Source: Clostridia bacterium (GTDB lineage: Bacteria > Bacillota > Clostridia > TANB77 > UBA1234). From it: DNA of 64,000 bases. The notes under the pieces are model-generated. The model saw only the letters and a program-made list of their open reading frames with translations. It was not told the DNA's origin and did not search any database. Positions 19,851 through 45,409 of the stretch are shown piece by piece (within the stretch, counting starts at the first letter, position 1; each line of letters starts with the position of its first letter). Where the stretch lies: assembly GCA_017521465.1 (NCBI GenBank), contig JAFXCN010000025.1, positions 35,330-99,329 of the forward strand, written 5' to 3'. A program made the position numbers and the translations under genes.

Positions 19851-21207
19851 TTATACACCATAAGCGTCAAATAAGAATGTACCCATGTATACTTCCATGA
19901 TTGGTTTTAAGATGATTAATACGAATCCTACAAGAATTACACCCATGATAATATTACCAACTTCAGGTAATACCTTAGTAATTCTTGCGATTGTGATTTC
20001 AATATCTTCTTCTAAGAATTCTAATATTTTATCAATCATCGTTGTCATATCTGTTTCCATACCAATTCTTAACATCTCAAGTGTCATTGTTGGGAAGAAA
20101 GACATGTTTTCAAATGGTTCAATCCATGAACCTCCGACTGCCAAGTTAGCCTGTGATGTTTCTAATGCAGCAATCAAAACATAGTTTCCGCACAACGTTT
20201 TTACTTACTTCTATCGCTTCTTGTAACCTTGCATTATTCGCTAAATTTATCTGCATTGCCTTAAAGAATTTCTGCAAATTCAATCTTAATATCAATTGTC
20301 CAAATATAGGCATTCGAAGCTTGAACATATCCCAAGAGTATCTTCCACGAGGTGTGTTTTTCCATGCAATAAATAATCCTGCAATAGCTCCTATAATTGC
20401 TAAAACTATATACCAGTAATCACCACACCAATATATAATTTCAGCAAATTTCATTGTTAGTTCTGGAATTTGATCTTCCATTCCAAATTGCGCATACATA
20501 TCTTGCATTATCGGAATACCAAAAATAACAGCAACTATACCACCTATTAAAAGTCCTCCCGATTGAAGCAAAGGTCCAGTTAAGGCTTTCTTTACTTTCT
20601 TCTTTATGGCTGTAGAGTCTTGAATATATTTCATCGCTTGTTCAAGTGAAGTTGCAAGTGAACCAGATAGTTCTCCAACCTTTATGATGTTTATGTATAT
20701 CGGTGGGAATATCTTATTATAGTATTCAAGTGTTGTATATATGTATTGTCCAGCTTCTAAACCATTTAATATATCTTCTATAATATTTCTCATAGCAGCA
20801 TTTTTAGTATTATTAAGCATAGTAGTAAGCGCTCTCATGTTTGTAAAATTAGCTCTTTTTAATAATAATAACATCTGAGTAAATGCAATAACATCTTCTG
20901 TAGTAACTCTGTCTAAAAAAGATAAATCAATATCGGCACTTAAATCCTTCTTGCGCTCTTTTTTTGCATTATTTTCAGCCGCCGTCTTAGCCAATGTTTC
21001 ATTAACAACAATCGCAACTGATTGGTTCTTCTTTTCTTTTTGACCTGGGCTTAAGATTGAAGCTACTTTTAATTCTTTTTTGATAGATATAGGTGTTAGT
21101 CCTTGTTGTTTTAATCTACGAGCAACATTTTCTTCGCTTTCATCACTCATTTTGTTTTTAAATATTTGTCCTGTTTTACTAACAGCCTTATAACTATACA
21201 TTGCCAT
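19851..21207 (-). pseudogene. pilC: PilC/GspF inner-membrane platform protein, one frameshift
   Basis: Two reading frames (21207-20146 and about 20200-19851) encode consecutive parts of one GspF/PilC protein: N-terminal FKNKMSDESEENVARRLKQQ, two GspF domains and three membrane segments. The first frame diverges into an unrelated tail after VSKN. The second resumes with CGNYVLIAALETSQANLAVGG. Removing one base from the A5 run (+ strand TTTTT, 20198-20202) restores a continuous EVSKTLCGNYVLIAA. So either the platform gene is broken, the site is a slippery programmed frameshift, or the base is a sequencing error. All other parts look intact. Confidence 0.85.
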
Positions 21208-21230
21208 AAGCGTTTCTCCCTTCTGCTTTT

Positions 21231-22880
21231 CTAGTAAGCCAATTTATTTCTAACCTCCGCAACAGTAGTTATACCCTGAAGAACTTTTTCAAAAGCATCA
21301 ACAACCAAAGGTCTATAGCCACTTTCAAAAGCTGCTTTTCTAATTGTACTAGCTGATTTATCTTCAATAATTAAATCTCTTAAATTATCATCAACACTTA
21401 AAATTTCAATTGCAGCAATTCTTTCATAAAAACCTGTCTTGTTACATTTTTCGCAACCAACTGGTTCATATGTATGCTTACCTTCTAAATTAAATTCATG
21501 ATTATATCTCTTTCCAATTGTTTTAAATTCTTCTATTTCTTCTGGTGTGAATTCTCTTTCTTTAGCACAATTTGTGCAAATTCTTCTTATTAATCTTTGT
21601 GCTATACAAGTTGCTAAAACACTTCCTACGTCATATGCTGAAACTCCAAGTTTTTTAAGTCTTGTTATAGCTTCGATAGAGTCAACAGTATGGATTGTAG
21701 ATAAAACGAAGTGTCCCGTTTGTCCAGCTTGTATTGCTATTTCAGCAGTTTCTTTATCTCTTATTTCTCCGACAAGAACGATATCAGGGTCTTGTCTTAA
21801 GATAGTTCTTAATGCATCAGCAAAAGTTTCATTCGGAGTAACTTCAACTTGGTTTAAGCCTGGAACTCTTATTTCTACTGGGTCTTCAATTGTTGTTATA
21901 TTTATTGTAGGTTTTGATAAGAATTTCATAACACTATATAGGGTTGTTGTTTTACCTTCACCAGTAGGAGCAGCAACTAAAGCAATACAGTTTCTCTTGT
22001 TGAAACACTTATTAAGGATTGCTTCATCGTTTGGAAATCCTAAATCAAAAAGACCTTTAATATTCGCGTTTTTCTTTAATAATCTTAAAACGAATTTTTC
22101 TCCATGTATATTTCTCTGTGAAGATACACGGATGTTATAGTCTGGATATGATACAATTCTACCATCTTGTGACTCTTGTTTTTCTTGGTGCATGTTAGAA
22201 ATAGCTTTTAATCTACCAACTATAACTTGTTGTTTATCTTTATCAATAGAAGCAACTTCTATTAATTCACCATCTATTCTAAATCTAATTCTCATTCTAT
22301 TATCCATAGGTTCAAAGTGAATATCACTTGTTCTCTTTGACATGGCTGAACGAATAATATTATCAACTAATTGTGTAGTATCTTGACCGTAAACATCATA
22401 AACCTCTGCTTTACCAGCTTTTCTATCCATCTCTTGAATCATTTTGTCTATGTATGATCCAAATGTAAGATAACGATCTAATTTTAATCCTTTATTTAAT
22501 AATATAAGATTAACCATCTTTATTACACTAGTATCTTCTGGGTCAGCAAACGCAACTTTAAGTCTATCTTCTTCGATACCAAATGGAACTACTTTGTGTT
22601 GTCTTATAATATCAAGAGAGATATATTGTGAACAATTAAACTTTTCAAATATTAATGGATCAAGCTGAACATATTTAACGCCTAATCTTTCTGCTAAAGC
22701 TTTTAGCAAATCTTCATCTCTACATAAATTTAATATATGAAAAATTTCTCCAAGTCTTTTTTCTGGATGTTCTTTTTGATATGCAAGCGCCGTATCAATA
22801 TCTTTTTCTGAGATTAAGTTCTTTCTAATTAAATAAACTCCCAATGGCACTTTCTTTGCTGAATTATCAAATATTGCCAT
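21231..22880 (-). CDS. pilB: type IV pilus assembly ATPase PilB/GspE
   Basis: Hexameric ATPase that powers pilus extension. The 549 residues have an N-terminal MshEN-like domain (KVPLGVYLIRKNLISEKDID), Walker A APTGEGKTTT with Lys about 310, the Asp-box region DPVEIRVPGLNQVEV, Walker B DIVLVGEIRD, and a CxxC...CxxC zinc site (CTNC and CEKC). The frame opens at 22907, but GAGGAGGAG stands before ATG 22880. It lies upstream of pilC with a 23-nt gap. No PilT retraction ATPase occurs in the window. Confidence 0.93.
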   Translation of the reverse strand: MAIFDNSAKKVPLGVYLIRKNLISEKDIDTALAYQKEHPEKRLGEIFHILNLCRDEDLLKALAERLGVKYVQLDPLIFEKFNCSQYISLDIIRQHKVVPFGIEEDRLKVAFADPEDTSVIKMVNLILLNKGLKLDRYLTFGSYIDKMIQEMDRKAGKAEVYDVYGQDTTQLVDNIIRSAMSKRTSDIHFEPMDNRMRIRFRIDGELIEVASIDKDKQQVIVGRLKAISNMHQEKQESQDGRIVSYPDYNIRVSSQRNIHGEKFVLRLLKKNANIKGLFDLGFPNDEAILNKCFNKRNCIALVAAPTGEGKTTTLYSVMKFLSKPTINITTIEDPVEIRVPGLNQVEVTPNETFADALRTILRQDPDIVLVGEIRDKETAEIAIQAGQTGHFVLSTIHTVDSIEAITRLKKLGVSAYDVGSVLATCIAQRLIRRICTNCAKEREFTPEEIEEFKTIGKRYNHEFNLEGKHTYEPVGCEKCNKTGFYERIAAIEILSVDDNLRDLIIEDKSASTIRKAAFESGYRPLVVDAFEKVLQGITTVAEVRNKLAY

Positions 22881-23033
22881 ATTTTCTCCTCCTCTTTCGT
22901 ACTTCAAACCACCTTAGTAATAAGGGAAAATAAAACTCCCATTTAACAAAATATTCTATATATTATTTTATTACTTTTACAAAATAAGTCAATATAAAAC
23001 CTTTATTTTCAAACAATTGCATAATGTTACAAA

Positions 23034-23255
23034 TTAATCCACTTCTATAATTTCTCCACCATTATCAACATATATTTTTGCTAATCCATCTGCAGCAAAA
23101 TTATTACCATAAACTTCTGTAATGACTTTAATTGCTTCTCCTTGCACTTTATATCTTCTTGCAGCATTACTACACAAAAGTACACCATACAAAGCAAATA
23201 ACAACATTGCCGAATATGCCATTAATGCAACTGAACCTTTTGTTGATTTAAACAT
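23034..23255 (-). CDS. small pilin-like membrane protein
   Basis: 73 residues. N-terminal FKSTKGSVALMAYSAMLL resembles a prepilin leader (basic stretch ending KG) followed by a 20-residue hydrophobic helix, then a short soluble part with no cysteine pair. The size and its position at the end of the minor-pilin group suggest a minor pilin or PilX-like accessory. Glu5 is absent, so processing by the prepilin peptidase is uncertain. Confidence 0.65.
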   Translation of the reverse strand: MFKSTKGSVALMAYSAMLLFALYGVLLCSNAARRYKVQGEAIKVITEVYGNNFAADGLAKIYVDNGGEIIEVD

Positions 23256-23266
23256 AGTATCACTCC

Positions 23267-23737
23267 TTAATATCCTCGTCCTATTTTATATGTTCCATTT
23301 TCAATCCATTCATAATCACCATTTTTAAATGTAAGTGAAAACGTTACTGTGTTGCTAAGAAAATCATAGTCAAATGCAGGTGCTGAACCTTCTGCACTAT
23401 TTGTTATCCCTTCACAGATTTTTACATTATCTCTATAAATAGCATAATTACTATAGTCTTCTTCTTTTTCTTCCATAACTTTAATTTCATAAGTTACATT
23501 ATTTAAAAATTTAATTCTTGTTGCACTATATTCTACAACTTTTTCACTATTCTTTGCATCTTTTAAAAACACAGAAACAAATTTTAAGTGTTCATTTATT
23601 ATTTCTGTTTTTTCTGTTAAATCTGAAATTTTTGAAAAAAAGTTTGCATTCATAAATGTTAGTATACCAACAACTATAGCTGCAACAATTACATATACAG
23701 ATAGTGATACCAATGATATTCCTTTGTTAGATTTCAT
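23267..23737 (-). CDS. minor pilin / pseudopilin-like protein
   Basis: 156 residues beginning MKSNKGISLVSLSVYVIVAA: a short basic leader, a KG|I cleavage site and a hydrophobic helix, then a beta-rich soluble region. The +5 residue is Val rather than Glu. It overlaps no neighbour and lies 11-12 nt from the genes on each side, so all three small pilin genes are likely cotranslated. Confidence 0.75.
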   Translation of the reverse strand: MKSNKGISLVSLSVYVIVAAIVVGILTFMNANFFSKISDLTEKTEIINEHLKFVSVFLKDAKNSEKVVEYSATRIKFLNNVTYEIKVMEEKEEDYSNYAIYRDNVKICEGITNSAEGSAPAFDYDFLSNTVTFSLTFKNGDYEWIENGTYKIGRGY

Positions 23738-23749
23738 GTTATACCTCCC

Positions 23750-24286
23750 TTATGATTTAGTAACTTTTAGTGCACCAATTTCATATGACATTATATCTTC
23801 TTTAGCAATTTCTTTTCCTGGTATTTGAGGTTTTATGGTATATTCTACTAAAACCGAAATATTTATAAGGGTATTGTCATATGCATCGTCGCCATCTGAT
23901 GGCACTCTTCTAACTTTCGTTGTAATTCTCATATTATTAGTTTCAGGCGAATCAATAAAACCCCCTTCAACAATATCATCTGGCACACTATATTCTCCAG
24001 CTGCTAACTTCTTTCTGCCTTCTTCAGTTGTTCTTAATGATTTAACAATATTTATTAGTTCTTCTTCCGATGCTGGATCTGGCAACAGCTCATCCGCATT
24101 CTTTTGCAACATCTCTTCAACACGTGAAATAGCGTGACTCACAACATAGTTTTTTTGTTGTATTGCACGATATATATTGAAGCAACCATTAAAAAGTACT
24201 GTGCTGCATGAAAGCAGAACAGTTATAATCAATATTCCTACACCAATTTCAATTAATGAATATCCCTTTTGTGATTTCAAATTCAT
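23750..24286 (-). CDS. prepilin-like protein with Glu5
   Basis: 178 residues. The leader MNLKSQKG|YSLIEIGVGI has the classical N-methylation site with Glu at +5. Apart from this leader the protein is a helix plus an acidic soluble domain. The frame is open to 24346, but GAGGAGGGAAA before ATG 24286 fixes the start. It is the first of three minor-pilin-like genes. Glu5 usually marks pilins that must enter the growing filament, so this could be the tip or initiating pseudopilin. Confidence 0.82.
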   Translation of the reverse strand: MNLKSQKGYSLIEIGVGILIITVLLSCSTVLFNGCFNIYRAIQQKNYVVSHAISRVEEMLQKNADELLPDPASEEELINIVKSLRTTEEGRKKLAAGEYSVPDDIVEGGFIDSPETNNMRITTKVRRVPSDGDDAYDNTLINISVLVEYTIKPQIPGKEIAKEDIMSYEIGALKVTKS

Positions 24287-24344
24287 ATCTTTTTCCCTCC
24301 TCAACGCACTTGTGCGTTGTACTTTCAGCGAAGCTGTACTCTTC

Positions 24345-24366
24345 ACTATTCACTCTTCACTATTCA
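24345..24366 (+). repeat. TTCACTATTCACTC short tandem repeat
   Basis: CTTCACTATTCACT occurs twice in a row directly before copy R2. Related CACTATTC sequences are found near R6 (about 13873) and after R7 (about 52100). Confidence 0.6.
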
Positions 24367-24375
24367 CTCACTTAT

Positions 24376-24473
24376 GTGTAACGCAGTTCGCTTTCGCAGA
24401 CGGCCGCTGCGCGGGCGGCGATTCGCCCTTTTCCGTCAGCGAAAGTGCTTCCTTCGGAAGCTTCGATACGCAC
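24376..24473 (+). repeat. 98-bp palindromic repeat, copy R2
   Basis: GTGTAACGCAG to GATACGCAC. Outer stem TTTCGC-A-GACGG / CCGTC-A-GCGAAA; inner GCCGC / GCGGC; second hairpin GCTTC-CTTCG-GAAGC. It lies between the prepilin peptidase and the minor pilin genes, and is antisense to their transcription. Confidence 0.92.
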
Positions 24474-24481
24474 ATATTTTT

Positions 24482-25279
24482 TTACACTATTATAAAGTTT
24501 ATTATCTCCAATACTTCTGTGATGTGCGGTAATATGATTATTGTGATTGCAGTTGCGATTGATAGATAGTAACCGAACGGTATTTCTTTTATTCGTTTTA
24601 TTATTAAATATAATAGTGTTACTAATAATGAAATTAGCATTGCAACCACTTGTCCACTAAAACCTAAGAATAATCCTATTACTGCTATATATTTTATATC
24701 TCCCATTCCAAATGGAAGTTTGTTTTCGTTTTTAGTTATTAGTTTTACTAATAAATTTATGATGGTAAATAGCAATGGTATTGCTAATAAACCGACTATG
24801 TTGCTATATACAGAAACTTTATTAAATATTTTAAATGCTATATATCCAAAACCAACGACTAATTCATATATAATTAATCCGTTTGGTATTATTAAATTTT
24901 CTTTATCTATTCCACCTATTATAAATACTCCACATAGGAATAAATATATAAATGATATTTCTATAAATTCGTATAACGAACTTTCTATTCCAATATTATG
25001 TGATAATGCTACTAGTAAAAAAATCAATCCTGAAAAAATTTCTAATAATAAATATCTTGGTCTAATTTTATCTTTGCAATATCTGCATTTTCCCCCTAAA
25101 AAAATGTAACTAAGTACAGGTATTAAATCAAAACCATATAACTTATGATTACATTTAGGACAATATGATCTAACATATGTTATGTTTTCATTTCTTGGTA
25201 TTCTATGTACTGCTAATGTAAAAAAACTTCCAAAAACAGTACCTGATATTAAGATTGTAAGTAATATAATTACATCCAC
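24482..25279 (-). CDS. pilD: prepilin peptidase (A24 family)
   Basis: Cleaves the prepilin leader and usually N-methylates the new N-terminus. The 265-residue polytopic protein has the N-terminal methylase-type domain with two CxxC pairs (CPKCNHKL and CRYCKDKI) and the catalytic aspartate region LPFGMGDIKY. I place the start at GTG 25279 because AAGGAG sits 6 nt upstream; the frame upstream to 25309 has no ribosome site. It is needed for all pilin-like genes of this locus. Confidence 0.9.
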   Translation of the reverse strand: MDVIILLTILISGTVFGSFFTLAVHRIPRNENITYVRSYCPKCNHKLYGFDLIPVLSYIFLGGKCRYCKDKIRPRYLLLEIFSGLIFLLVALSHNIGIESSLYEFIEISFIYLFLCGVFIIGGIDKENLIIPNGLIIYELVVGFGYIAFKIFNKVSVYSNIVGLLAIPLLFTIINLLVKLITKNENKLPFGMGDIKYIAVIGLFLGFSGQVVAMLISLLVTLLYLIIKRIKEIPFGYYLSIATAITIIILPHITEVLEIINFIIV

Positions 25280-25300
25280 TTTTTTCTCCTTATATATTAC

Positions 25301-25334
25301 ACAAGGCATATACAGCTTTGTGCATATGCCTTGT
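25301..25334 (-). other. hairpin between pilin gene and prepilin peptidase gene
   Basis: ACAAGGCATAT (25301-25311) pairs with ATATGCCTTGT (25324-25334). No U-tract follows on the minus strand, so it is more likely an mRNA 3'-end stabiliser or processing site that uncouples pilin from peptidase levels. Confidence 0.5.
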
Positions 25335-25361
25335 ATGTATTCTTATTAATATAAACTAATA

Positions 25362-26015
25362 TTAGCCAGCTGGATCTGGATCTGGAGTAGCTGGTGTTAC
25401 TGTGTTTACACTAGCTTTTTCTTCAGCACCCTCTGTAAGAGCTGTTTTTGTAGCTAAATCATCATGAGCTTCATTTGAAAGATAATATGTATCAGCTGTA
25501 ATATACATTCTGTATTCTTCATCAACTGTTCTTGGGAATCCAGGTATTGTAAATACTACACCTTTTTCTGTAACATAGTGTTGTTCTGTTCCTAAGTTAT
25601 CACCATAGAATTTGTGATTATCTTCATATCCAGCAACGTTTGAATCTGTGATTAAGTAACATTTCATTTCAGCGTCTAACATATCAGGATTTCCACCTTT
25701 TAAATCACCAATAGCTGCTAAAAGTTTACCAGCTGGAACTAACACACCTGCTGCTGGAGCTGTTCCTGTAGCTGCTTCATAGTATAATTGAGCGTCTGTT
25801 TTTGTTATTCCGTCAACACCATATTTTTCTCTTAAATCACCAACTGTGTCTGCTTTAAAGTTTAATGCGTAGTCACCAAATTCTTGAGCGAACCCAGAGA
25901 ATTGTGCTCCACCTGTTGCATCGTCCATTCCTACGAATGCGATAGCTGCTAAGATAATTATTACGATGATTGTAATAATTAATGTGATCATTGATACACC
26001 TTTTTGATTTTTCAT
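25362..26015 (-). CDS. pilA: major type IV pilin
   Basis: 217-residue prepilin with leader MKNQKG|VSMITLIITIIVII, a long hydrophobic helix, then an acidic globular domain rich in Ala, Gly and Asp and ending in a Pro/Asp tail (TPATPDPDPAG). The +5 position is Thr rather than Glu. Its size, a strong AAGGAGGA site and a separate structured leader suggest that it is the abundant subunit. No cysteines are present. Confidence 0.85.
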   Translation of the reverse strand: MKNQKGVSMITLIITIIVIIILAAIAFVGMDDATGGAQFSGFAQEFGDYALNFKADTVGDLREKYGVDGITKTDAQLYYEAATGTAPAAGVLVPAGKLLAAIGDLKGGNPDMLDAEMKCYLITDSNVAGYEDNHKFYGDNLGTEQHYVTEKGVVFTIPGFPRTVDEEYRMYITADTYYLSNEAHDDLATKTALTEGAEEKASVNTVTPATPDPDPAG

Positions 26016-26044
26016 AATAAAATCCTCCTTAAAATTTAAAAAAT

Positions 26045-26148
26045 ATTTCTTGCCTAGTGCTCTAGGACTTTAGTTGCCTGATTAATCAGGACTTTATATT
26101 CCTAGAGTTTAGCGCTAGGCCGGTATATTGCCTGTGCTACTTCTAGGT
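26045..26148 (-). promoter_or_regulatory. hairpin chain in the major pilin 5' leader
   Basis: On the transcript strand four short units follow one another: CCTAGAAGTAGCACAGG-CAA (weak), CCTAGCGCTAAACTCTAGG-AA, CCTGATTAATCAGG-CAA and CCTAGAGCACTAGG-CAA. The last two are embedded in the same AAAGT...GGCAA frame. The outer arms can also pair with each other. This ends about 25 nt before the pilin ribosome site. I do not match it to a known riboswitch. Confidence 0.7.
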
Positions 26149-26152
26149 TTTT

Positions 26153-26183
26153 AATTAGATTAATGGTATATATTAATCTAATT
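26153..26183. other. 12-bp inverted repeat upstream of pilA
   Basis: AATTAGATTAAT (26153-26164) and ATTAATCTAATT (26172-26183) with a 7-bp loop. It lies between the pilP-like gene and the pilin leader; it could be a weak terminator or an operator. Confidence 0.5.
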
Positions 26184-26211
26184 AATTACAAAGTTATACA
26201 ATTTATATATA

Positions 26212-26715
26212 CTACTCTAATGACGATTCTCCTGCCGTTTCATTTGTTTTTGCAACAGATGGTTCAACTACAGTACCGTCTGGTTTTGTAATGATTGTAT
26301 CTTTTGTACCATCAGGAGCAACAGTTGTAGTAACTGTATTTCCATTTTCATCCGTAGTAATTGAAACATAGAAACCTCCACTCAAACTGCCTATTACTGT
26401 TTCAGTAGGAATATCAGATACAGATTCAATTGGATTGAACGGATCAAATCTTCCTGGTGATACTATCTTTTCAGTAAGATACGATTCTAATTGTGATGAA
26501 GATGTTTCAAACGTTTGTGTAGCACTTGCTTGATCTTCCACATTCCCTCTTACATTATAGTCATCTTTATTTATACGAGTATATTTTACAGAATCAGGTA
26601 CTTTTTTGCCAAATGGAACTTTGTCATAGAATGCAAACGCTAAAGCGCCAAGTATAAGTAGCAAAAATAATAACGCAATGCCAAGTTCTTTTAATATTCT
26701 CATAAAAATTTGCAT
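26212..26715 (-). CDS. PilP-like pilus assembly lipoprotein/anchor
   Basis: 167 residues: N-terminal membrane segment (about residues 10-30), then an acidic extracellular part with GRFDPFNPIESVSD. The R-x-DPF pattern is typical of PilP/GspC-type alignment-complex proteins. No lipobox is seen, so the hydrophobic helix is the probable anchor. It is placed directly downstream of the PilO-like gene. The C-terminus is low-complexity (Thr/Gly/Asp-rich). Assignment is by synteny and one motif. Confidence 0.55.
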   Translation of the reverse strand: MQIFMRILKELGIALLFLLLILGALAFAFYDKVPFGKKVPDSVKYTRINKDDYNVRGNVEDQASATQTFETSSSQLESYLTEKIVSPGRFDPFNPIESVSDIPTETVIGSLSGGFYVSITTDENGNTVTTTVAPDGTKDTIITKPDGTVVEPSVAKTNETAGESSLE

Positions 26716-26746
26716 CTTATCCTCCCCTTCGATTCATTCCATTTCA

Positions 26747-27325
26747 TTAAGACTCAGTCGTAATAACATTTATACCGCTTACAGAAAATTTAGCTTTTGT
26801 ATTTGAAAGATTGCTTGTACCTTCCATAATTATATTGTTTACATTAAAACTAAGTTCTGAATCATTTTCTAAATCATATATAAAATTTATAATAGATATA
26901 TATGGTCCGCTAACATCAAAATCAATAACCGAAGAAAATGGTGATGGGTCTATTAAAACTTTAATGTTATTTGCATTTGCATAATTACCAATCTTTATCC
27001 ATAAATAATCTAACAAAATTTCTTCTCTCTTGTTTGCTTCTGCTATTTCAGTTGCTGAAGCACTTGCTGCTAAAGCGTCATATTCTTTTTTTGATCTATT
27101 AAATTGTTGTCTTGCACTTTCTAATTGTCTCTTTATAGAATCATATTGTGTTCCATTCAAACTCTCTAATTCATCAATTTTTGAATTTAATGTAGAATTT
27201 TTACTTTTTATTTTTGCATAAGATAATGCATCGACACTTCCAAAGGCTAATCCATTTTTATATACATTATACGTTGCAAATATAAAAATACACGTTATAA
27301 TCAATAATCCTAATTTTTTAATCAT
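26747..27325 (-). CDS. PilO-like pilus alignment protein
   Basis: 192 residues: a membrane helix at about 5-22, a coiled coil (about 38-75) and a ferredoxin-like C-terminal domain, the PilO/GspM arrangement. ATG overlaps the PilM-PilN stop by 4 nt (ATGA), so translation is coupled. It would pair with the PilN half of that fusion on the outer face of the membrane. Confidence 0.75.
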   Translation of the reverse strand: MIKKLGLLIITCIFIFATYNVYKNGLAFGSVDALSYAKIKSKNSTLNSKIDELESLNGTQYDSIKRQLESARQQFNRSKKEYDALAASASATEIAEANKREEILLDYLWIKIGNYANANNIKVLIDPSPFSSVIDFDVSGPYISIINFIYDLENDSELSFNVNNIIMEGTSNLSNTKAKFSVSGINVITTES

Positions 27326-29079
27326 GGCAATACCCCATTTATATTAATTTTTATTGAAGATGTATCCATGCTTACAACTTCCATATTAACATCTTCAAGA
27401 ATACCCTCTAGTTTTAATCTTGAAACAAAGTAACCTAATTGAGCATATCTACCAGATTCTGCAGAAATTTTTACTGTATCACTCTCGTCATAAATTCTAA
27501 CAGAAGTAACTTTTACTTCTTCTGGAATTGAGAACATCAATCTGCTTAACAAATTCGGAATATCAAATGATCTTTCTTCTTTTGTTTTAATTGTTTCTAA
27601 TATTCTTTGCAACTTCTCAGTTTTTGCGTCATAGTCTTCTTTTTGAGCACCAATATAAGTAATGTCATTTTCAACAAGTTTGATTTCCTTTTGAGAATCA
27701 GCAATTCTTGTATTGGCTACAGAAATCTTTTCATCTAAAAGTTGACCTGTATAATGAGATACTCCAGCATAAGCTGCAAATGCCACAAACGCTGATATTG
27801 CAATTCTTGTTAGCCATTCTTCAAACGGATCATAATATTCATCTGAACTACTATCTGCTTCTGCTTTAGGCATCTCTCCAGCTCCACCTAACTGATCAAG
27901 TTGTTCAACCTCATCATCAAAAGCAATAGAATTACGTCTGTCTTTAGATTTAACTTTTCGTTTCATTTTGTTGTCTACATTTGTCATCCACTCGTTAGCA
28001 ACATTCATTATATCTTTCATCGAAATTTGTTTCTTTAACTTGTTTTTGTTAGCCTCGTTTTTTAAGTATCCACCACTAGCAAAGAAATCGGTTTCTTTAT
28101 TAACACCATCAACACCATACGCTGCTATAGCTAATGCATTATTTACTTCAAGCACATCTTTGATGCTTGTTCTATCTCTGTTTATAAAGTATGGAATTAA
28201 AACTTCACACTTGGCTCCCGTAAAAGCGTCTTCAAAGTATAGGTCAATGTTATTTATTATTACACCAGTTCCAGTAATATAAAGATTTCTAAGTGTATCT
28301 TTATATTGATACAACGCTGCGATTATTCTTTGTTTTAAATCGTATAATATCGGTAATAATATTTCATTTATTTCTTTTGTATCTTCATCCATTGAATAGC
28401 TTGTATTCGCATATACATCAACACCTTTGCAAGCATCGTATGCTCGTGAATATGAATTATATTTTTCAGAAACACGTGCAAATATTTCGTCCATTCCTAA
28501 TGGAATAGTAATCAATTCTGCAATTTCACCATTATTAAATACTGTTATTTTTGTATCATCTTCTATATTAACAATTGCTGATTTTTCACCAACACCTTTA
28601 TTTTTTAACAAATGTGCATTTGCAAGACCAACAGATGTAATACCAGTAAGTTTATATTGACCAAAAACTTGTCCTAAATTTGTAAGTTCCGTTTGATGAG
28701 CAGCGATACAAATAGCCTTATATGTATCTTGATCACCTGTGTTTCTAACCAATATATATCTCATGTCTAACACTGCACTGTTAACATTTTTTTCTTCACA
28801 TATTGAATTAAAGTTTGTAGTAACCAAAGATTTTACATCTTTTGAACTCAGTTTACTAAACACATTCACAGATGTATAATCTTCTGTATTTAATCCAACA
28901 CATATTGGAGTATTTTCACTTTGTGTTTCAGAAATAATTTCTCTAACAGTATCAGCCAAAGAATCATAAAATTTTATGCCAAAAGAATTAAGCGTAGTAA
29001 GAGAAGAAGATTTATCTTTGGTCAATTTTGCATATTTAATTAGATTTTTCTCAATGCATATTCCTAAGCAACTTGGCAT
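27322..29079 (-). CDS. PilM-PilN fusion protein
   Basis: 585 residues. Residues 1-350 are an actin-like PilM domain (starts MPSCLGICIEKNLIKYAKL; nucleotide-binding type ICVGLN). A charged linker follows (about 350-415), then one membrane helix at about 421-443, a coiled coil, and a PilN-like ferredoxin domain. In most bacteria PilM (cytoplasmic) and PilN (membrane) are separate and bind via the PilN N-terminal tail; here they are covalently joined. It is coupled to the PilO-like gene. Confidence 0.82.
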   Translation of the reverse strand: MPSCLGICIEKNLIKYAKLTKDKSSSLTTLNSFGIKFYDSLADTVREIISETQSENTPICVGLNTEDYTSVNVFSKLSSKDVKSLVTTNFNSICEEKNVNSAVLDMRYILVRNTGDQDTYKAICIAAHQTELTNLGQVFGQYKLTGITSVGLANAHLLKNKGVGEKSAIVNIEDDTKITVFNNGEIAELITIPLGMDEIFARVSEKYNSYSRAYDACKGVDVYANTSYSMDEDTKEINEILLPILYDLKQRIIAALYQYKDTLRNLYITGTGVIINNIDLYFEDAFTGAKCEVLIPYFINRDRTSIKDVLEVNNALAIAAYGVDGVNKETDFFASGGYLKNEANKNKLKKQISMKDIMNVANEWMTNVDNKMKRKVKSKDRRNSIAFDDEVEQLDQLGGAGEMPKAEADSSSDEYYDPFEEWLTRIAISAFVAFAAYAGVSHYTGQLLDEKISVANTRIADSQKEIKLVENDITYIGAQKEDYDAKTEKLQRILETIKTKEERSFDIPNLLSRLMFSIPEEVKVTSVRIYDESDTVKISAESGRYAQLGYFVSRLKLEGILEDVNMEVVSMDTSSIKININGVLP

Positions 29080-29109
29080 ATTATCTTTTGCTCCTTCTAA
29101 ATATTTTTA

Positions 29110-29937
29110 TTATATTTCTGTAGTATCACTTTCTTCTGTTTCTTCTACTTCCTCAATTACAGGATTAAAATCATATATTTCAAATCTATACAAGAAAGTT
29201 AACATTTCAGAATATGTTATTTGTTTGTCTAGCATTAAGTCTGATTGGTATCCAAGTAAAACACCAGCTTCATTAAAGCTTGTAATTATTTCGCTTTCAG
29301 TTAAACCTTGAGAAGATAGCAAATCAAACATTAATAACAAAAATTCTTTTCTTGTAACCTCTCCTGCATATGGAATTATACCATAGTTAAATATTTCTGC
29401 ATTTCTAACTCTTCCCAAACGTGAAAGAGCAAGTTCTCTATATTCTCTATCATTTATAATGGTAGCAGCTTTGTATTGAGATAGTCTCAAATACAAGTCT
29501 ATATTTTTTACACTATTTCTAACCAAATAATTTTTATATTGTTCAAAAGTTCCTCTTGCATGTTCAACATAACTTTCGACTTGTCTATATTCGTCAGGCG
29601 TTAATGATGGTTTTGATATATACGTATTAATTAATCCAAATAAACCAGCAACAACATTATTTAAATAAGTCATATCATCTACATGATGTGCTAATTTCCC
29701 TTCTGGTTGTACGCCTTTCAAATCTAAATATTTTAATATTATAGAATAAAAATCTGAATGGGTTACAACTTGGTTTAATTGTGATCTAGATTTAACAGAA
29801 GTAAGTCCTCTTGTTAATCCCCATTCATAACCAGGAGTTGCCCACCAGGCAGCAAACGATACATTAGATGTGAACAATACAATTGTTAACAATAAAAACG
29901 CAATAATTTGTTTTGAACTTTTAAAATGTTTTTTCAT
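29110..29937 (-). CDS. exported SLH-like protein
   Basis: 275 residues with a clear Sec signal peptide (MKKHFKSSKQIIAFLLLTIVL, ending near AAWWA). Near the C-terminus are S-layer-homology-like segments, for example EVTRKEFLLLMFDLL followed by ITYSEMLTFLYRFE. An acidic tail follows (VEETEESD). SLH domains bind pyruvylated secondary cell-wall polymers, so it may anchor or guide the pilus through the wall. It is the first gene of the pilus locus and lies 30 nt before pilM-N. Confidence 0.65.
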   Translation of the reverse strand: MKKHFKSSKQIIAFLLLTIVLFTSNVSFAAWWATPGYEWGLTRGLTSVKSRSQLNQVVTHSDFYSIILKYLDLKGVQPEGKLAHHVDDMTYLNNVVAGLFGLINTYISKPSLTPDEYRQVESYVEHARGTFEQYKNYLVRNSVKNIDLYLRLSQYKAATIINDREYRELALSRLGRVRNAEIFNYGIIPYAGEVTRKEFLLLMFDLLSSQGLTESEIITSFNEAGVLLGYQSDLMLDKQITYSEMLTFLYRFEIYDFNPVIEEVEETEESDTTEI

Positions 29938-38508: not shown

Positions 38509-38553
38509 ATATATGTTATCTTTTGTCAATATTATGACTATTAGGGGGTAAAA

Positions 38554-41142
38554 ATGTTAACTAAAATTTTAAATTTAATAGTAACTCCATTTGAAGCAAT
38601 GCTAAAGCCATTTAAAATTAACCTTAACGAATTCTTTGCTTATATTTTTTCTATAATCTGCGTTTATCTCGCAGTCGATAGACTTTTTGAATTCGGACAT
38701 GTTTTTTTAACTGGTGAATTTGTAAATTATTGGTCTATGTGGGCATATATATTAGCAATAGCGTGTCCAGTAATTGGATTCCAACTTCTATGTGGTTCGC
38801 CTAAGAACAATACTTTAAAAGCTCCCATGCACTTTTTTGTGTTTTACTCACTTTGTCTATATGTTATTGTCATATCAATGATTTCACAATGGTCAAATGA
38901 AATAATATGGTTTCTTTTAATGCAATTAAGAAACTTTAGATATATAGCAACCAACTTACCAGAAACAATAACACCTGCTGTTGGATGTCTTTCTATCTTA
39001 GCTGCGGTTTCTACTTTTAGAACAGCTTGGGGATATTATATTGGTAATGTCGTTGATGGAGATTCAGAATGGATTGAATCTTTTGAAGAATACCCAGGTT
39101 ACAAACTAAAATCTGCAAAAAGTCAAAAAACTACTCCAGCTGCATTCTTATGCGACGCTCCAATATGTGTTGATGACAAACTTGGTGAGCTTATCTATAT
39201 TCCAGAAAAGAAAAGATTTGAAGCTATCCTCGTAGAAGGTGCTACTGGTACTGGTAAAACTGCTACAATCGTTGAACCAATGTGTGCTAACGATATTGAA
39301 AGAAAATATTTCTTTAGAGAATTAAGTAAAAAATTAGGTTATAATGCATTACAAGCTGGGCTTGCAACACTTAAAGTTCCATATAGCAATGACTTCTTAA
39401 ATAGAAACTTTACTCTATCTTTCTTAAAAGCTAGAGATAATAGAATTAACGATTACAAAGACTATGTTAAAGATATGCTTAAATATACGGATCCAGAAAC
39501 AAAAGATATGTATTACAGAGATTTAGGTTTTACATTAGTTGCTCCTGACAACGCATGTATAGAAAGAGTTAGAAAAGTTGCCGCTGCTTATAGCATGGAT
39601 GTTAGAGTTATTGATCCAATGGATCCATACTCATATGGTATAAATCCATTCATAGGAAAAGACCCTGCAAAAGTTGCAGCCATCATTTCTACAGTTTTAA
39701 AAGGTATGTATGAAGCTGATGGCGGTGGCGGAGATAATATATTCTTTGCTAGCGTTTCGCAACAGGCTTTTGAAAACTTAGCGATTTTATTAAAATTAGT
39801 TTATCCAAAAGTTCACGGCGGTGAAATCCCTACTCTTGAAGATATGCTTGATATTCTTAACAACTTTGATAAAGCTGAAGAACTTTGTGAAATTTTAAAG
39901 AAAGATCCTGAACTTGCAGAAGATTATAAATCATTAATAGGATATTTTGAGAAAAACTTCTACAAACCTCCTGTTAATATCCATGGATATGAAATTGCCT
40001 CTACATATGGTAGTGGTAGAAAAGAAACTGAAAAGTTTGTTTATGGTGCTATTACTCAATTAGATAACTTCCTTAGAAATCCTGGTATTAAAAGAGTTTT
40101 ATGCAGCAGAAATAACAATATAGATTTAGATGCTGCTCTTCAAAATGGTGAAATCATTACAGCTTGTACTAGACAAGGTGACCTTGGTGAAATACATCAA
40201 AAAGCATTTGGTATGTTTGTTATTTTGTCATTTAAAGATGCCGTACTTAGAAGACCTGGTGTTGAAGATTCTAGAACACCACACTTTATATATATAGATG
40301 AATTTCCTCTATATGTTAATAAGGATACAGAAGCATTCTTTACATTGTTTAGAAAATATCGTTGTGGAACATTAATTACAATACAGAACTTATCACAATT
40401 AACTAAAAATTCTTCACTTGCCTACTTCAAAGATGTTATTGTTACTAATACAAAAACTCAAATCGTATTTGGCGACTTAACTGCTGAAGAAAGCGAATTC
40501 TGGTCTGCAGAACTTGGTGAATACAAGAAATGGGATTATAAGGCGAAAAAGATTTATGATACTCATTCTGATGATGGAGATAAAGCACAAACTGAAGCAT
40601 TGATGGCAGAAAAGAAAGTTTCAGAAAGACATTATAAGGCAGGTAAAATATTCTCGCTTAAATTTAAACAATGTGTTTACAAGACAAAAAATGCTAGCGG
40701 AAAAACCATTGTTGGTAGAGGTAATACAGACTTTATAAAGAGTTCTTATTACGAAGAACACAAATGTGCTAAATATAATTTCGAAATATTTGGTAATTCA
40801 TCAGAAAATAATGATAAAACTACAGAAGCAATAAATACTAATAACACTTTCTTTAGTGGAAATGATATGCCAGAATCAATGGTATTATCAAATGATCAAA
40901 ATGTTATCGATGTTACAGGAAGCAAAGTTTCAGCAGATGGATTCGGAGAATTAAAAACAACTTCTTCCTCTACTTCTGATACTGATATCTTTATTGATTT
41001 GAATAATGATGGAATAAATGATCTTTCTTATGCTAAAACATTAAAGAAAAATTCTGGTACTGATGATGATTCAAATTCTAGCGGAATATTTAAAATCGAT
41101 GATGTTTCAGATGGTGATTCAATAATTATAGAATATAAATAA
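38554..41142 (+). CDS. VirD4/TraG-type P-loop ATPase, stand-alone
   Basis: 862-residue membrane-anchored ATPase. Four or five hydrophobic segments lie in residues 25-170. Walker A GATGTGKT is at 229-236 and Walker B in HFIYIDEFPLYV with D582-E583, followed by QNLSQLTKNS typical of the type IV coupling-protein motor. The C-terminal 120 residues are Ser/Thr/Asn-rich with a calcium-loop-like DLNNDGINDL at 815-824. No relaxase, VirB4, VirB6 or integrase is near; the gene stands alone between pth and a convergent coaB-like gene. It has AGGGGG before ATG 38554. Substrate unknown. Confidence 0.85.
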   Translation: MLTKILNLIVTPFEAMLKPFKINLNEFFAYIFSIICVYLAVDRLFEFGHVFLTGEFVNYWSMWAYILAIACPVIGFQLLCGSPKNNTLKAPMHFFVFYSLCLYVIVISMISQWSNEIIWFLLMQLRNFRYIATNLPETITPAVGCLSILAAVSTFRTAWGYYIGNVVDGDSEWIESFEEYPGYKLKSAKSQKTTPAAFLCDAPICVDDKLGELIYIPEKKRFEAILVEGATGTGKTATIVEPMCANDIERKYFFRELSKKLGYNALQAGLATLKVPYSNDFLNRNFTLSFLKARDNRINDYKDYVKDMLKYTDPETKDMYYRDLGFTLVAPDNACIERVRKVAAAYSMDVRVIDPMDPYSYGINPFIGKDPAKVAAIISTVLKGMYEADGGGGDNIFFASVSQQAFENLAILLKLVYPKVHGGEIPTLEDMLDILNNFDKAEELCEILKKDPELAEDYKSLIGYFEKNFYKPPVNIHGYEIASTYGSGRKETEKFVYGAITQLDNFLRNPGIKRVLCSRNNNIDLDAALQNGEIITACTRQGDLGEIHQKAFGMFVILSFKDAVLRRPGVEDSRTPHFIYIDEFPLYVNKDTEAFFTLFRKYRCGTLITIQNLSQLTKNSSLAYFKDVIVTNTKTQIVFGDLTAEESEFWSAELGEYKKWDYKAKKIYDTHSDDGDKAQTEALMAEKKVSERHYKAGKIFSLKFKQCVYKTKNASGKTIVGRGNTDFIKSSYYEEHKCAKYNFEIFGNSSENNDKTTEAINTNNTFFSGNDMPESMVLSNDQNVIDVTGSKVSADGFGELKTTSSSTSDTDIFIDLNNDGINDLSYAKTLKKNSGTDDDSNSSGIFKIDDVSDGDSIIIEYK

Positions 41143-41181: not shown

Positions 41182-41221
41182 AAAACCTGATAAACTTTTA
41201 GATTTATCAGGTTTTATTTTT
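41182..41221. terminator. bidirectional terminator after the VirD4-like gene
   Basis: AAAACCTGATAAA (41182-41194) / TTTATCAGGTTTT (41203-41215) then ATTTTT, between convergent genes. Confidence 0.88.
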
Positions 41222-41263: not shown

Positions 41264-42031
41264 TTAAAACAAAATATTCGTCAGAGACTCTGCAATTTCT
41301 TTTTTAGTATTACATTCTGTTACTACTCCATTGCTATCTAAAATCATCGCCCAATGCTTACCGTTACCAATCTTAGACAAATCGTTGGCAACGATATAAT
41401 TAGCATCATTTTTAACTCTAAGCCTGGTTGCAACTTCGTTTAGTTCGTTCTTATCGACACCATCCAGCAACTTAAATCCTACCAGTGTTACATCAGGAGC
41501 CATTTTTTTGATAAGTCCGATAACCTTTGGCGTAAGCCCTAGCATAGTCATCAAATGTGGCTCATAAGAAGAAATTTTCGTATCATTGTTGCAAACCGCA
41601 CTTGGGTTTTCAAAAATTTTCAAGAGTCTTTCTTTAGTAATGTCTTCTTTGCACGCAGCAGTTTGAATGGTTTCAAAAATTTCATCAATCAAATCTTCAG
41701 CCCTAATTACATATTTACCCAAATAGTCACCAACTGCAGCAGAATGAATCATAATATGAATCTCTTGTTCAGAAAAAATTTTTCTAAGTGCATCAATCAA
41801 ATCTTGCGTAGATTCAACAGTTACATATACAATCTTGTCGCTTTCAATTCTAGGTTTACGCGTCATCTTTGTAGAGATATAGAAAATAGTTCCAATCTCA
41901 TCAAATTTTCTCTCCAACAAAGTTTCACCAATAATACTTCCAAGCGCACCTGTAGACATGTTTGTAATCTTCATTACAGAATCAATTCGTTCATTGGTAG
42001 GCCCGGCAGTGATGATAACATTTTTCTTCAT
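41264..42031 (-). CDS. coaB: phosphopantothenate-cysteine ligase-like (CoaB)
   Basis: 255 residues beginning MKKNVIITAGPTNERIDSV, with ITNMSTGALG (nucleotide-binding loop), IHSAAVGDY and VGFKLL. This is the CoaB fold of coenzyme A synthesis: coupling of 4'-phosphopantothenate and cysteine. It resembles the stand-alone streptococcal form; no CoaC decarboxylase is fused. The start lies 2 nt downstream of the nitrilase-like gene stop, so the two are one operon, opposite a LysR regulator. Confidence 0.8.
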   Translation of the reverse strand: MKKNVIITAGPTNERIDSVMKITNMSTGALGSIIGETLLERKFDEIGTIFYISTKMTRKPRIESDKIVYVTVESTQDLIDALRKIFSEQEIHIMIHSAAVGDYLGKYVIRAEDLIDEIFETIQTAACKEDITKERLLKIFENPSAVCNNDTKISSYEPHLMTMLGLTPKVIGLIKKMAPDVTLVGFKLLDGVDKNELNEVATRLRVKNDANYIVANDLSKIGNGKHWAMILDSNGVVTECNTKKEIAESLTNILF

Positions 42032-42033
42032 TG

Positions 42034-42900
42034 TTATTCCCTCCTTATATCTTCCACAACGATATCTCTTGGATTGTTTAAGTAACTATCGCTTCTACCA
42101 AATCTACTTAATTCTTCAGCAAATACAAATTTACCAAAAAGAAATTGAGCCTTCACATCTGACATTGATAGAATATGAGATACATTTTGTTTTGACTCTA
42201 TATTTTGTTCTCTAAGCCATTCTTTTTCATGAATTGAAACAGGCCCATAAATATAACTTTTTCCATCAGCATATTTTTTACCTTGGTAAGTTCCTACACA
42301 GTTCAAAACAAAAGTATATATTCTTTCATTGTGATTATGAATACATACTGTCTCTTCTTCAAAAACTCTAGTGTTCGAATTAGAGCAAATTGCAAATATT
42401 CCAAACAAACCATTATTAAGTCCTCTATTCCTCGCAATATAATATGCAGCATGATAATATTCCATGCAATTCAAAATATAGATTTTCTTTCCTTTAATCC
42501 AAAAAGAATGTTGTTCCAATTGTTCACTAATAAATTCTTCAGGCGGACAAAATGAAATTTTTCTAGCCATCGGTTCTGCACCAGATGCATATCCTTTTGC
42601 GATTTCATACTTCATTCCATCCGCGAACACCACTGTAGTATTAATGCATTCTTTGTAAAAACTGCCCGCCACAATTATTCTAGTTCTTGATAGTTCTTGA
42701 TATTCTTTTTCAAATTTAGGCACATATGTCATCTCTGGAAACAAACTAATATCAGGACCATATTCTCTTATTACCTCTAAACAATTTTCTATTTGTTTTA
42801 AAGCTTCATTCGTTTCAACTAAATATTCCTCTCGACTATCACATTTTAATTCTACACTCAGTTGAAACATTGCAACTGATAAATAGTTATTTACCAGCAT
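42034..42900 (-). CDS. nitrilase-superfamily carbon-nitrogen hydrolase
   Basis: 288 residues. The catalytic triad of the superfamily can be placed: Glu56 in SLFPEMTYV, Lys102 in YEIAKGYA, Cys145 in ILNCMEYYHA. Members hydrolyse amides or nitriles (amidases, beta-ureidopropionase, pantetheinase and others). The substrate is not evident. Being joined to a CoaB-like gene suggests a pantothenate or pantetheine-related amide, but that is inference only. AGGAG stands 7-9 nt before ATG 42900. Confidence 0.7.
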   Translation of the reverse strand: MLVNNYLSVAMFQLSVELKCDSREEYLVETNEALKQIENCLEVIREYGPDISLFPEMTYVPKFEKEYQELSRTRIIVAGSFYKECINTTVVFADGMKYEIAKGYASGAEPMARKISFCPPEEFISEQLEQHSFWIKGKKIYILNCMEYYHAAYYIARNRGLNNGLFGIFAICSNSNTRVFEEETVCIHNHNERIYTFVLNCVGTYQGKKYADGKSYIYGPVSIHEKEWLREQNIESKQNVSHILSMSDVKAQFLFGKFVFAEELSRFGRSDSYLNNPRDIVVEDIRRE

Positions 42901-43941: not shown

Positions 43942-44883
43942 TTACTTAGCTAGCAAAGGTATTTGAATTATTTCTAATTTATATCTATTTGTTGTTTCGT
44001 CTAATCTAAATGCAATTAACGTTTTATCTAACTCCTCTTCTAATTGTTTTAAATCAGTCGTATAATATACTTCAATTCCTTTAAGTTCAGCATTTATTTT
44101 CTTATATGCTTTAAATATTTCTATTAGATGTTCATCATCTTCTCCAATGATAATTAATTGAGGTTTTTTATCAAATCCACAATCTTTAGCTTGGAAGTTC
44201 TCATAGAAGTCTTCATACAATTTTATTTTTTCCATGAACTTTTCTTCCCACTTATCATTTCTTCTAACAACTTCAAAAACAATATCTATTTTAATGTCGT
44301 TTTTTACTAGTACAACTTGTCCACCAGACGCTTGGAATTTTGTGTTTTGTCTCTTCGAAAACAATGTAGGATTTGAAACATATCCTTTGTATGCACCTAC
44401 CTTTTGCATATATGCTATTACAGCTTGATTTCCCGCCAATTTTCTCTTAATCATATATACAGGTTTCGTATTATCCGTAGGTTGCCAATTGGTTTTAATA
44501 CCACGAGAGTTTAACAAATATTTTCCTATTTTATCTAAACAATACACTCTATATATTCCTTTTCCTTCACTACTTGAAAAGTAATATCTAGTAATTATTT
44601 TACTCTTTATCATATCTTCTAACTTCTTATTAACTTTGTCTTGCGACTTAATATCTATGCCTCTATATTTTAATAATTGAAAAATTTGTCTAGAAGTTAT
44701 AAATTCAAAATCATTAATCATTTCCATTATTTGAAAATGAATTTCATTGATATATCCCATATCAATTTTGTATACAACAGTATTAATTGATGCATACCCA
44801 TCTTTTCCATCAAAAACTTTGATTTCATTTTCCCTCATCGCAAAAGGTGATTTAGGTGCTTTAACTTCATTATCTTCTACCAT
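43942..44883 (-). CDS. winged-helix protein, replication-relaxation-like
   Basis: 313 residues. An N-terminal winged helix (about residues 45-130: MEMINDFEFITSRQIFQLL, then two strands and IYRVYCLDKIGKYLL) is followed by a mixed alpha/beta domain with VVLVKNDIKIDIVFEV and KKPQLIIIGEDDEHL, which looks like a restriction-nuclease-like fold with an acidic strand. This layout resembles replication-relaxation family proteins, often found with conjugative or integrative elements. It is 20 nt downstream of the S1-domain gene. Function not known. Confidence 0.5.
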   Translation of the reverse strand: MVEDNEVKAPKSPFAMRENEIKVFDGKDGYASINTVVYKIDMGYINEIHFQIMEMINDFEFITSRQIFQLLKYRGIDIKSQDKVNKKLEDMIKSKIITRYYFSSSEGKGIYRVYCLDKIGKYLLNSRGIKTNWQPTDNTKPVYMIKRKLAGNQAVIAYMQKVGAYKGYVSNPTLFSKRQNTKFQASGGQVVLVKNDIKIDIVFEVVRRNDKWEEKFMEKIKLYEDFYENFQAKDCGFDKKPQLIIIGEDDEHLIEIFKAYKKINAELKGIEVYYTTDLKQLEEELDKTLIAFRLDETTNRYKLEIIQIPLLAK

Positions 44884-44902: not shown

Positions 44903-45409
44903 TTAATCCAGAATGACTAGTTTAATCTTGTGACGTTCAGGCAATATTTTTTTCACCTTAACCTCTACTTCTTCTCCATATGATACGCCACTTTCGTATT
45001 CAGCCAAGCCAATTAGGTTTGGCATTAACTCTATAAAAATTCCATTCTTTTCTTTATCTCTTACAATTCCCTTTACAATATCACCTTCATTAAAGTTTTT
45101 GATGTTTTCTTCCCATGTCCCCAAAAGTTCCTTGTGAGATAATATAATTCTTCCCGTATCAAAATCTATTTTTTTAACAACAACTTTGATACTTTGACCT
45201 ACTTTAAATCTCTCAGCTGGATGCCTTATTCTTCCAATCGATATGTTTTCGATATGTAATAAGCCAACTATATCTTTTTGAAGTTCAACAAACACACCAT
45301 ATGGCTGAATCGATTTAACTTTACCTTGTAGGATCTTTCCCGCTTTTACTTTTGAATAAAAATTCTTGTTCAATTCAAGAACTTCATTTTCAAGAAGTTT
45401 ATCATTCAT
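44903..45409 (-). CDS. protein with two S1 RNA-binding domains
   Basis: 168 residues. Two S1 motifs: residues 20-90 (GKILQGKVKSIQPYGVFVEL, then VGLLHIENIS) and 105-165 (GDIVKGIVRDKEKNGIFIEL). Similar to short ribosomal S1-like or general stress proteins (YugI/GSP13 type). It has its own promoter and precedes the winged-helix gene. RNA or ribosome binding is likely, target unknown. Confidence 0.8.
   Translation of the reverse strand: MNDKLLENEVLELNKNFYSKVKAGKILQGKVKSIQPYGVFVELQKDIVGLLHIENISIGRIRHPAERFKVGQSIKVVVKKIDFDTGRIILSHKELLGTWEENIKNFNEGDIVKGIVRDKEKNGIFIELMPNLIGLAEYESGVSYGEEVEVKVKKILPERHKIKLVILD

Follow-up and report, generated by a model that had tools for sequence, protein, structure and literature searches.

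What is a complete coupling ATPase of the VirD4/TrwB type (T4CP) doing in a housekeeping region of a Clostridia chromosome? The gene in question lies in a 64,000-nucleotide stretch of contig JAFXCN010000025.1 (assembly GCA_017521465.1, order TANB77), which was analysed at its full length and is called the window below. T4CPs are hexameric ATPases, stimulated by DNA or protein, which recruit substrates. To our knowledge, work on the type IV secretion systems (T4SSs) of monoderm bacteria has nearly always treated them as components of mobile elements. A literature search for type IV secretion in order TANB77 found none, and the papers searched contained no experiment in the order. An earlier note on this DNA, made from the letters alone, had proposed that the gene encodes a motor working on its own, and we have followed up this proposal by analysing the protein, its neighbourhood and its relatives.

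The T4CP carries the marks of its class (Table 1). In a comparison of 36 sequences, the Walker A residues G229, G232, G234, K235 and T236 were invariant, as was D582 of Walker B, and E583 was present in at least 90% of them. Hydropathy peaks were found at residues 22-45, 62-80, 92-122 and 135-153 and the structural model has four long helices in this N-terminal region (residues 22-167), which indicates a transmembrane segment. Pfam matches to TraG-D_C (3.9e-6) and T4SS-DNA_transf (1.4e-4) were both just above the curated cut-offs, and a profile search against the PDB sequences matched no solved structure. An AlphaFold model was built with 36 homologs (mean pLDDT 78), in which the acidic C-terminal tail is of low confidence. 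Foldseek returned Helicobacter Cag-beta (8dol, 1.3e-10) as the top match among solved structures. Comparison with TrwB (1e9s) aligned 385 of the 427 TrwB residues, including the all-alpha domain, with a Z of 24.7 and an rmsd of 3.7, and the model fits Cag-beta and TrwB better than HerA or FtsK. The open reading frame, both Walker motifs and the membrane helices thus stand as the earlier note had read them, by sequence, hydropathy and model, and the coupling-protein pattern that it had recognised is found again in the Pfam matches above cut-off and in the TrwB/Cag-beta fold of the structure prediction. By its predicted fold, the product is a real, intact T4CP.

Table 1. Position of the T4CP gene, its sequence features and the accompanying winged-helix/S1 module in the window.
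Feature	Position	Strand	Basis
VirD4/TrwB-type coupling ATPase (T4CP), 862 aa	38554..41142	+	Pfam, predicted fold, order-core distribution
Ribosome-binding site AGGGGG, 5 nt 5' of the T4CP ATG	38543..38548	+	Sequence reading
T4CP N-terminal membrane segment, residues about 22-153	38617..39012	+	Hydropathy and long model helices
T4CP Walker A GATGTGKT, residues 229-236	39238..39261	+	Sequence, 36-sequence alignment
T4CP Walker B D582-E583 (in FIYIDEF)	40297..40302	+	36-sequence comparison
Bidirectional terminator, T4CP gene / convergent coaB-like gene	41182..41215		Position between both genes
Replic_Relax-like winged-helix protein; its C-terminal alpha/beta domain is PD-(D/E)XK-like	43942..44883	-	Pfam (sub-threshold), model, distribution
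S1-domain protein, upstream of and co-directional with the winged-helix gene	44903..45409	-	Pfam S1 (1e-23, two stretches)

Some weaker resemblances may be recorded here. The gp27.4 protein of SPO1-like Bacillus phages and its homologs match the T4CP weakly (26% over 34% of the query), and the match to phrog_5156 spans T4CP residues 491-642. PADLOC gave weak mad8 and HTH_IX matches, which we interpret as a shared ATPase or HTH fold.

Relaxase, VirB4, VirB6 and integrase genes had not been seen near the T4CP gene from the sequence alone, and indeed none of them was found near it in the window, nor any tRNA gene. The convergent CoaB-like gene (41264-42031) scores 192 bits against an NCBIfam equivalog cut-off of 265, and the following 288-aa ORF (42034-42900), situated between the coaB-like and LysR genes, has no family match above cut-off. 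Further away, the minus strand carries a type IV pilus cluster (20146-29937) encoding PilC-like protein, PilB-like ATPase, minor pilins, prepilin peptidase, pilin and PilM/N/O-like proteins; its PilC-like ORF (353 aa) is possibly truncated.

Protein searches in the same family and order recovered full-length T4CP homologs in 52 of 57 genomes, with about one copy per genome. At class level, a profile search was positive in 12 of 291 genomes, 11 of these being within the order. When 84,980 species genomes were scanned, at least 388 relatives came up; of the 80 that were retained, almost all have a title naming them as MAGs of Clostridia, Eubacteriales or Clostridium. Candidatus Merdicola faecigallinarum, which is among the carriers, has been assigned to order TANB77, family CAG-508 (PMC13106387), which points to TANB77 as the order of these genomes. 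In the 40 neighbourhoods that were read, the T4CP gene is surrounded by housekeeping genes, namely pth and RNase G in family f1, and pth, rplU, rpmA and obg in family f5; neither there nor among the ORFs of the window do integrase, relaxase and transfer genes surround it as one element. In a quick IQ-TREE phylogeny built from 36 sequences of the order and 10 from outside it, the latter with long branches, each of the five order families forms one clade with a support of 100, and the order stands apart from all plasmid sequences. The dN/dS ratio in close pairs is 0.03-0.06, corresponding to strong purifying selection. The presumption that this is a complete, conserved, chromosomal copy is therefore upheld by its distribution, contexts, monophyletic families and dN/dS, and the two situations that the earlier note had set against it, a place within an ICE in relatives and kinship with decayed conjugation modules, were not seen among these housekeeping neighbourhoods and order clades. 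Because the families are monophyletic and the neighbourhoods fixed, and judging by the T4CP tree itself rather than against a housekeeping species tree, the T4CP is an old, selected core gene inherited vertically. In family f2, two T4CP genes stand in tandem (L044:7844-12985, L045:6320-11206); as each copy clusters with the corresponding copy of the second genome, the duplicates diverged before the f2 genera split.

The T4CP gene is accompanied by a small module. The winged-helix gene is found in 51 of the 57 order genomes, and its product is better conserved than the T4CP itself. When 80 named loci were considered, duplicates being left out, it was present in the T4CP flank at 42, always convergent to the T4CP, and at 33 of those 42 (33 of all 80) it is backed by the S1 gene, an arrangement also seen in the window. 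The earlier note had taken the winged-helix gene for the only other conjugation-flavoured gene of the region: it is such a gene, as an order-core partner of the T4CP, and it is not the only one, since the S1 gene belongs to the same module. Against Pfam Replic_Relax (PF13814), the winged-helix protein of the window scores 22.8 bits, under the cut-off of 25.3, and its counterpart on plasmid pPPM1a exceeds this cut-off with 27.3 bits. In the sole genome outside the order found by the class-level T4CP search (G251), a Replic_Relax gene (4e-9) adjoins the T4CP gene. The model of the winged-helix protein (pLDDT 90.8) contains a MarR/PadR-like domain at residues 31-130, with Z of about 10-11. FokI is the top Foldseek match of its C-terminal alpha/beta domain (3.8e-4), a weak resemblance with a low TM-score, and the order of the elements in the model suggests that this domain is PD-(D/E)XK-like. 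E204, R207 and R208 are invariant and the usual ExK motif is not formed; a role as a nickase is possible but unsupported. Both partners look like nucleic-acid-binding proteins.

A search with PF12846 (VirB4-like ATPase) led to a protein of 650-690 aa in most order genomes and, through it, to an operon with the parts of a secretion channel. Its constant genes encode tandem TrbC/VirB2 pilins, a PrgI/VirB3-like protein, a conserved protein that we call cluster-3 (420-610 aa), VirB4 (P-loop_TraG, 2e-15), one to several polytopic VirB6-like proteins, VirB8-like proteins and a large hydrolase of the cell wall, whose domains are of the amidase, glucosaminidase, NlpC or CHAP type. The VirB2-like pilin ORFs form tandem arrays of 2-7. 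The labels VirB6-like and VirB8-like were given from topology and position, with profile support in the case of VirB6-like (3.7e-16 to a protein of plasmid pSSII-1). In family f1, the operon contains several tandem giant VirB6-like proteins of 700-1,500 aa, and its 3' end, read in five genomes, encodes a conserved soluble protein of about 350 aa (SGKLxGTRTL). In f5 genomes, genes of the TraX family (the pilin-acetylase family) and the SSB family were observed beside the operon (L183:1483-3063, L197:1467-4273), the SSB-family gene adjoining it in several genomes.

The core VirB4, and with it a complete T4SS operon of monoderm type, is present in 43 of the 57 order genomes, including the closest relative of the source genome (G002), at a chromosomal site separate from the T4CP, and 38 of the 57 possess T4CP, winged-helix protein and core VirB4 together. 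Among the 291 class genomes, its orthologs (at least 64% identity) are confined to the order, with two outsiders at 29-34%. The channel operon of the f5 genomes has the S1 and winged-helix genes as its last genes on the 3' side, which ties the T4CP site and the channel site together. Relaxase PF03432, the one MOB family included in the genome-wide search, is not co-conserved with these genes: it was found in 20 of the 57 order genomes and not in the source genome (G000).

The source genome itself deserves separate attention. Protein searches for core VirB4, cluster-3 protein and VirB6 were all negative in its assembly, which is 98% complete; no broken T4SS genes were found at the contig ends read, and the core operon was not found in two syntenic regions either. 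The site syntenic to the G002 operon is rearranged. The gene truA borders the channel operon in G002, G008 and G011; among the f1 genomes tested, the source genome and G005 have neither truA nor the core VirB4, and the remaining 8 have truA. Since the operon is missing together with its neighbour truA, an assembly gap is likely, and a single unassembled stretch holding both is the simplest account. Contigs of other MAGs (G026, G027, G037) break inside the channel operon. However, 13-14 of the 57 order genomes have no recognisable core VirB4, which is more than would be expected if a core gene were missing through random gaps, and G010 and G012 have no VirB4 yet keep truA, so that real losses or other gaps must occur too. 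Two further T4SS genes were noticed in the source genome, encoding an ICE-type VirB4 (C15:10221-11828; 27% identity to the core VirB4) and a canonical VirD4 of 685 aa (C24:11069-13126) distinct from the T4CP of the window.

Among 72,556 plasmids, the nearest relatives of the T4CP belong to large plasmids of Bacillota, almost all typed non-mobilizable. This search gave 77 records, of which 60 were listed, with a Sporosarcina protein as query; the window protein yields the same genera. When the core VirB4 was used as query, 2,065 plasmids matched, and 39 of the best 40 also appear in the list of 60 plasmids with a T4CP relative. The partners recur beside the plasmid T4CP, in the order T4CP-S1-Replic_Relax on pPPM1a, Replic_Relax-T4CP-S1-Replic_Relax on pSP10-266k and Replic_Relax-T4CP-x-S1-Replic_Relax on pG5.M11b_1. 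On the pBsph-like plasmid pSSII-1, an operon encoding PrgI, a cluster-3 homolog (1.3e-14), VirB4 (3.6e-96), VirB6 (3.7e-16) and an endopeptidase is located about 45 kb away from the T4CP gene. Several Bacilli plasmids with this T4CP (L273, L274, L276, L279) also have nearby genes annotated as SAF-domain/CpaB or 'ATPase, T2SS/T4P/T4SS family', which suggests a second, Tad-like machine on these plasmids.

Taken together, these results indicate that the T4CP of the window is quite probably the coupling ATPase of an ancient, order-wide secretion or conjugation machine, chromosomally fixed, split over several loci and devoid of a recognised relaxase. Such a machine would be encoded at two or more chromosomal sites, one with the T4CP, S1 and winged-helix genes and another with the channel operon. 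The T4CP would form an ATP-driven ring in the membrane, to which the winged-helix and S1 proteins, by binding a substrate nucleic acid or substrate complex, would present the cargo; VirB4 and the VirB6/VirB8 channel would then move it across the one membrane and through the wall, which the hydrolase would open, and a VirB2 pilus would probably contact another cell. We infer the cooperation of these parts in the present organism, the direction of transport and DNA as the substrate; DNA transfer in particular is to be read as presumptive because the relaxase is not co-conserved and no oriT is known. If this reading is true, an abundant and almost wholly uncultured gut lineage would have a fixed secretion or DNA-exchange trait operating without a recognised relaxase, and the T4CP/S1/winged-helix module would be a candidate for the missing DNA-processing step of the large 'non-mobilizable' plasmids of Bacillota.

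Concerning the cargo, there is a substantial chance, although somewhat short of even, that the same machine does not transfer DNA and instead moves proteins or serves as a contact pilus or uptake conduit directed at other cells of the gut, a role that has been proposed for the essential T4SS of Saccharibacteria. The failure to find a conserved relaxase (PF03432) agrees with this, as do the small genomes of the order (0.9-2.2 Mb), the expansion of VirB6-like proteins up to about 1,500 aa and the tandem pilins, which parallel the six-pilin array of the essential T4SS of Southlakia (PMC12857230). On the other hand, the S1 and winged-helix partners have the appearance of nucleic-acid-binding proteins, the closest relatives of the system are on conjugative or presumed-conjugative plasmids, and an SSB-family gene lies by the operon in several f5 genomes. 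A bolder proposal, which we advance tentatively and consider rather doubtful, is that the relaxase-less machine, as part of the vertically inherited core genome, delivers chromosomal DNA into cells nearby, that the winged-helix and S1 proteins replace the relaxosome, and that chromosomal conjugation is a housekeeping trait of the order.

The suggestion of a lone export motor, in which the T4CP would function in this organism without any VirB4 channel, now seems unlikely. It would agree with the negative searches in the organism's own assembly and with the 13 genomes that possess a T4CP and no recognised core VirB4, but a cognate VirB4-type operon is present elsewhere in most genomes of the order, the closest relative included, and the T4CP and VirB4 lineages co-occur on the same plasmids. 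Moreover, the absence of the operon coincides with that of truA, and contigs of three other MAGs end within it. Still less credible is that the species has lost its chromosomal channel and that the T4CP has come to work with the genome's ICE-type T4SS, whose VirB4 (C15) and canonical VirD4 (C24) provide the basis for this idea: the element brings its own VirD4, and the T4CP of the window is vertically inherited while the ICE-type VirB4s are patchy and different.

A chromosome translocase like FtsK/SpoIIIE would also be a membrane-anchored DNA motor of RecA-like fold, and FtsK structures do match the model (Z about 18); we regard this as highly improbable, as TrwB fits better and over a longer stretch (385 residues, compared with about 224 for FtsK), and replacement of FtsK was rejected because nearly all genomes, including the source genome (C23), have a separate FtsK of about 800 aa. 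A remnant of a decayed conjugative element, which the distant homologs on plasmids might evoke, can be practically dismissed given the order-wide conservation, intact catalytic residues, low dN/dS and a context without integrase or att-like features.

The preferred reading, a chromosomally fixed machine with the T4CP as its coupling ATPase, can be compared with several known systems. The T4CP shares its fold, its Walker motifs and an N-terminal membrane segment with canonical VirD4, TrwB and TraG, and differs from them by its remote sequence, its longer acidic C-terminal tail and the lack of a linked relaxase. The rvh T4SS of Rickettsiales (PMC2653234) is a parallel in the way it works, being order-wide, vertically inherited and scattered in chromosomal islets with duplicated VirB6; in contrast, it is of the diderm VirB7-10 type, belongs to obligate intracellular Proteobacteria and is non-homologous at the family level. 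The essential T4SS of the saccharibacterium Southlakia (PMC12857230) is a parallel in gene content, a chromosomal monoderm system with VirB1/B3/B4/B6/B8/D4-like components and VirB2 pilins in tandem; its lineage likewise has small genomes and is difficult to cultivate, although it is from a different phylum. Its VirD4-like component is named within one T4SS locus (PMC12857230), whereas the T4CP of TANB77 is at another site in most genomes. The tip system of the large plasmid pXO16 of Bacillus thuringiensis, for which relaxase and oriT are unidentified, mobilises 'non-mobilizable' plasmids and chromosomal markers, and its T4SS has been described in a review as unlike known ones (PMC9673590); it is likened to the TANB77 system here by its published description.

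The closest counterparts are the pBsph-type plasmids of Lysinibacillus sphaericus (pBsph, p1593, pSSII-1) together with pSP10-266k, pPPM1a and pMU3262, which have a homologous T4CP (about 23-31% identity) and VirB4 (about 30%). As in order TANB77, the channel genes follow the order PrgI-cluster3-VirB4-VirB6-hydrolase, the S1 and Replic_Relax genes are at the T4CP and this T4CP module is apart from the operon; a relaxase was not called by MOB-suite on these plasmids. One of them, p1593, transfers and mobilises IME8 (PMC13239906), and pBsph and pBsph-2 gave no transfer under the conditions of an earlier study (PMC4363355). A Tad/T2SS-like cluster is near the T4CP on plasmids, and no such link was seen in order TANB77. 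The main difference is that the plasmids are mobile, whereas the genes of the order are chromosomal, vertically inherited and order-wide. The gene of the window encodes a T4CP and represents the pBsph-type plasmid system in a chromosomal form.
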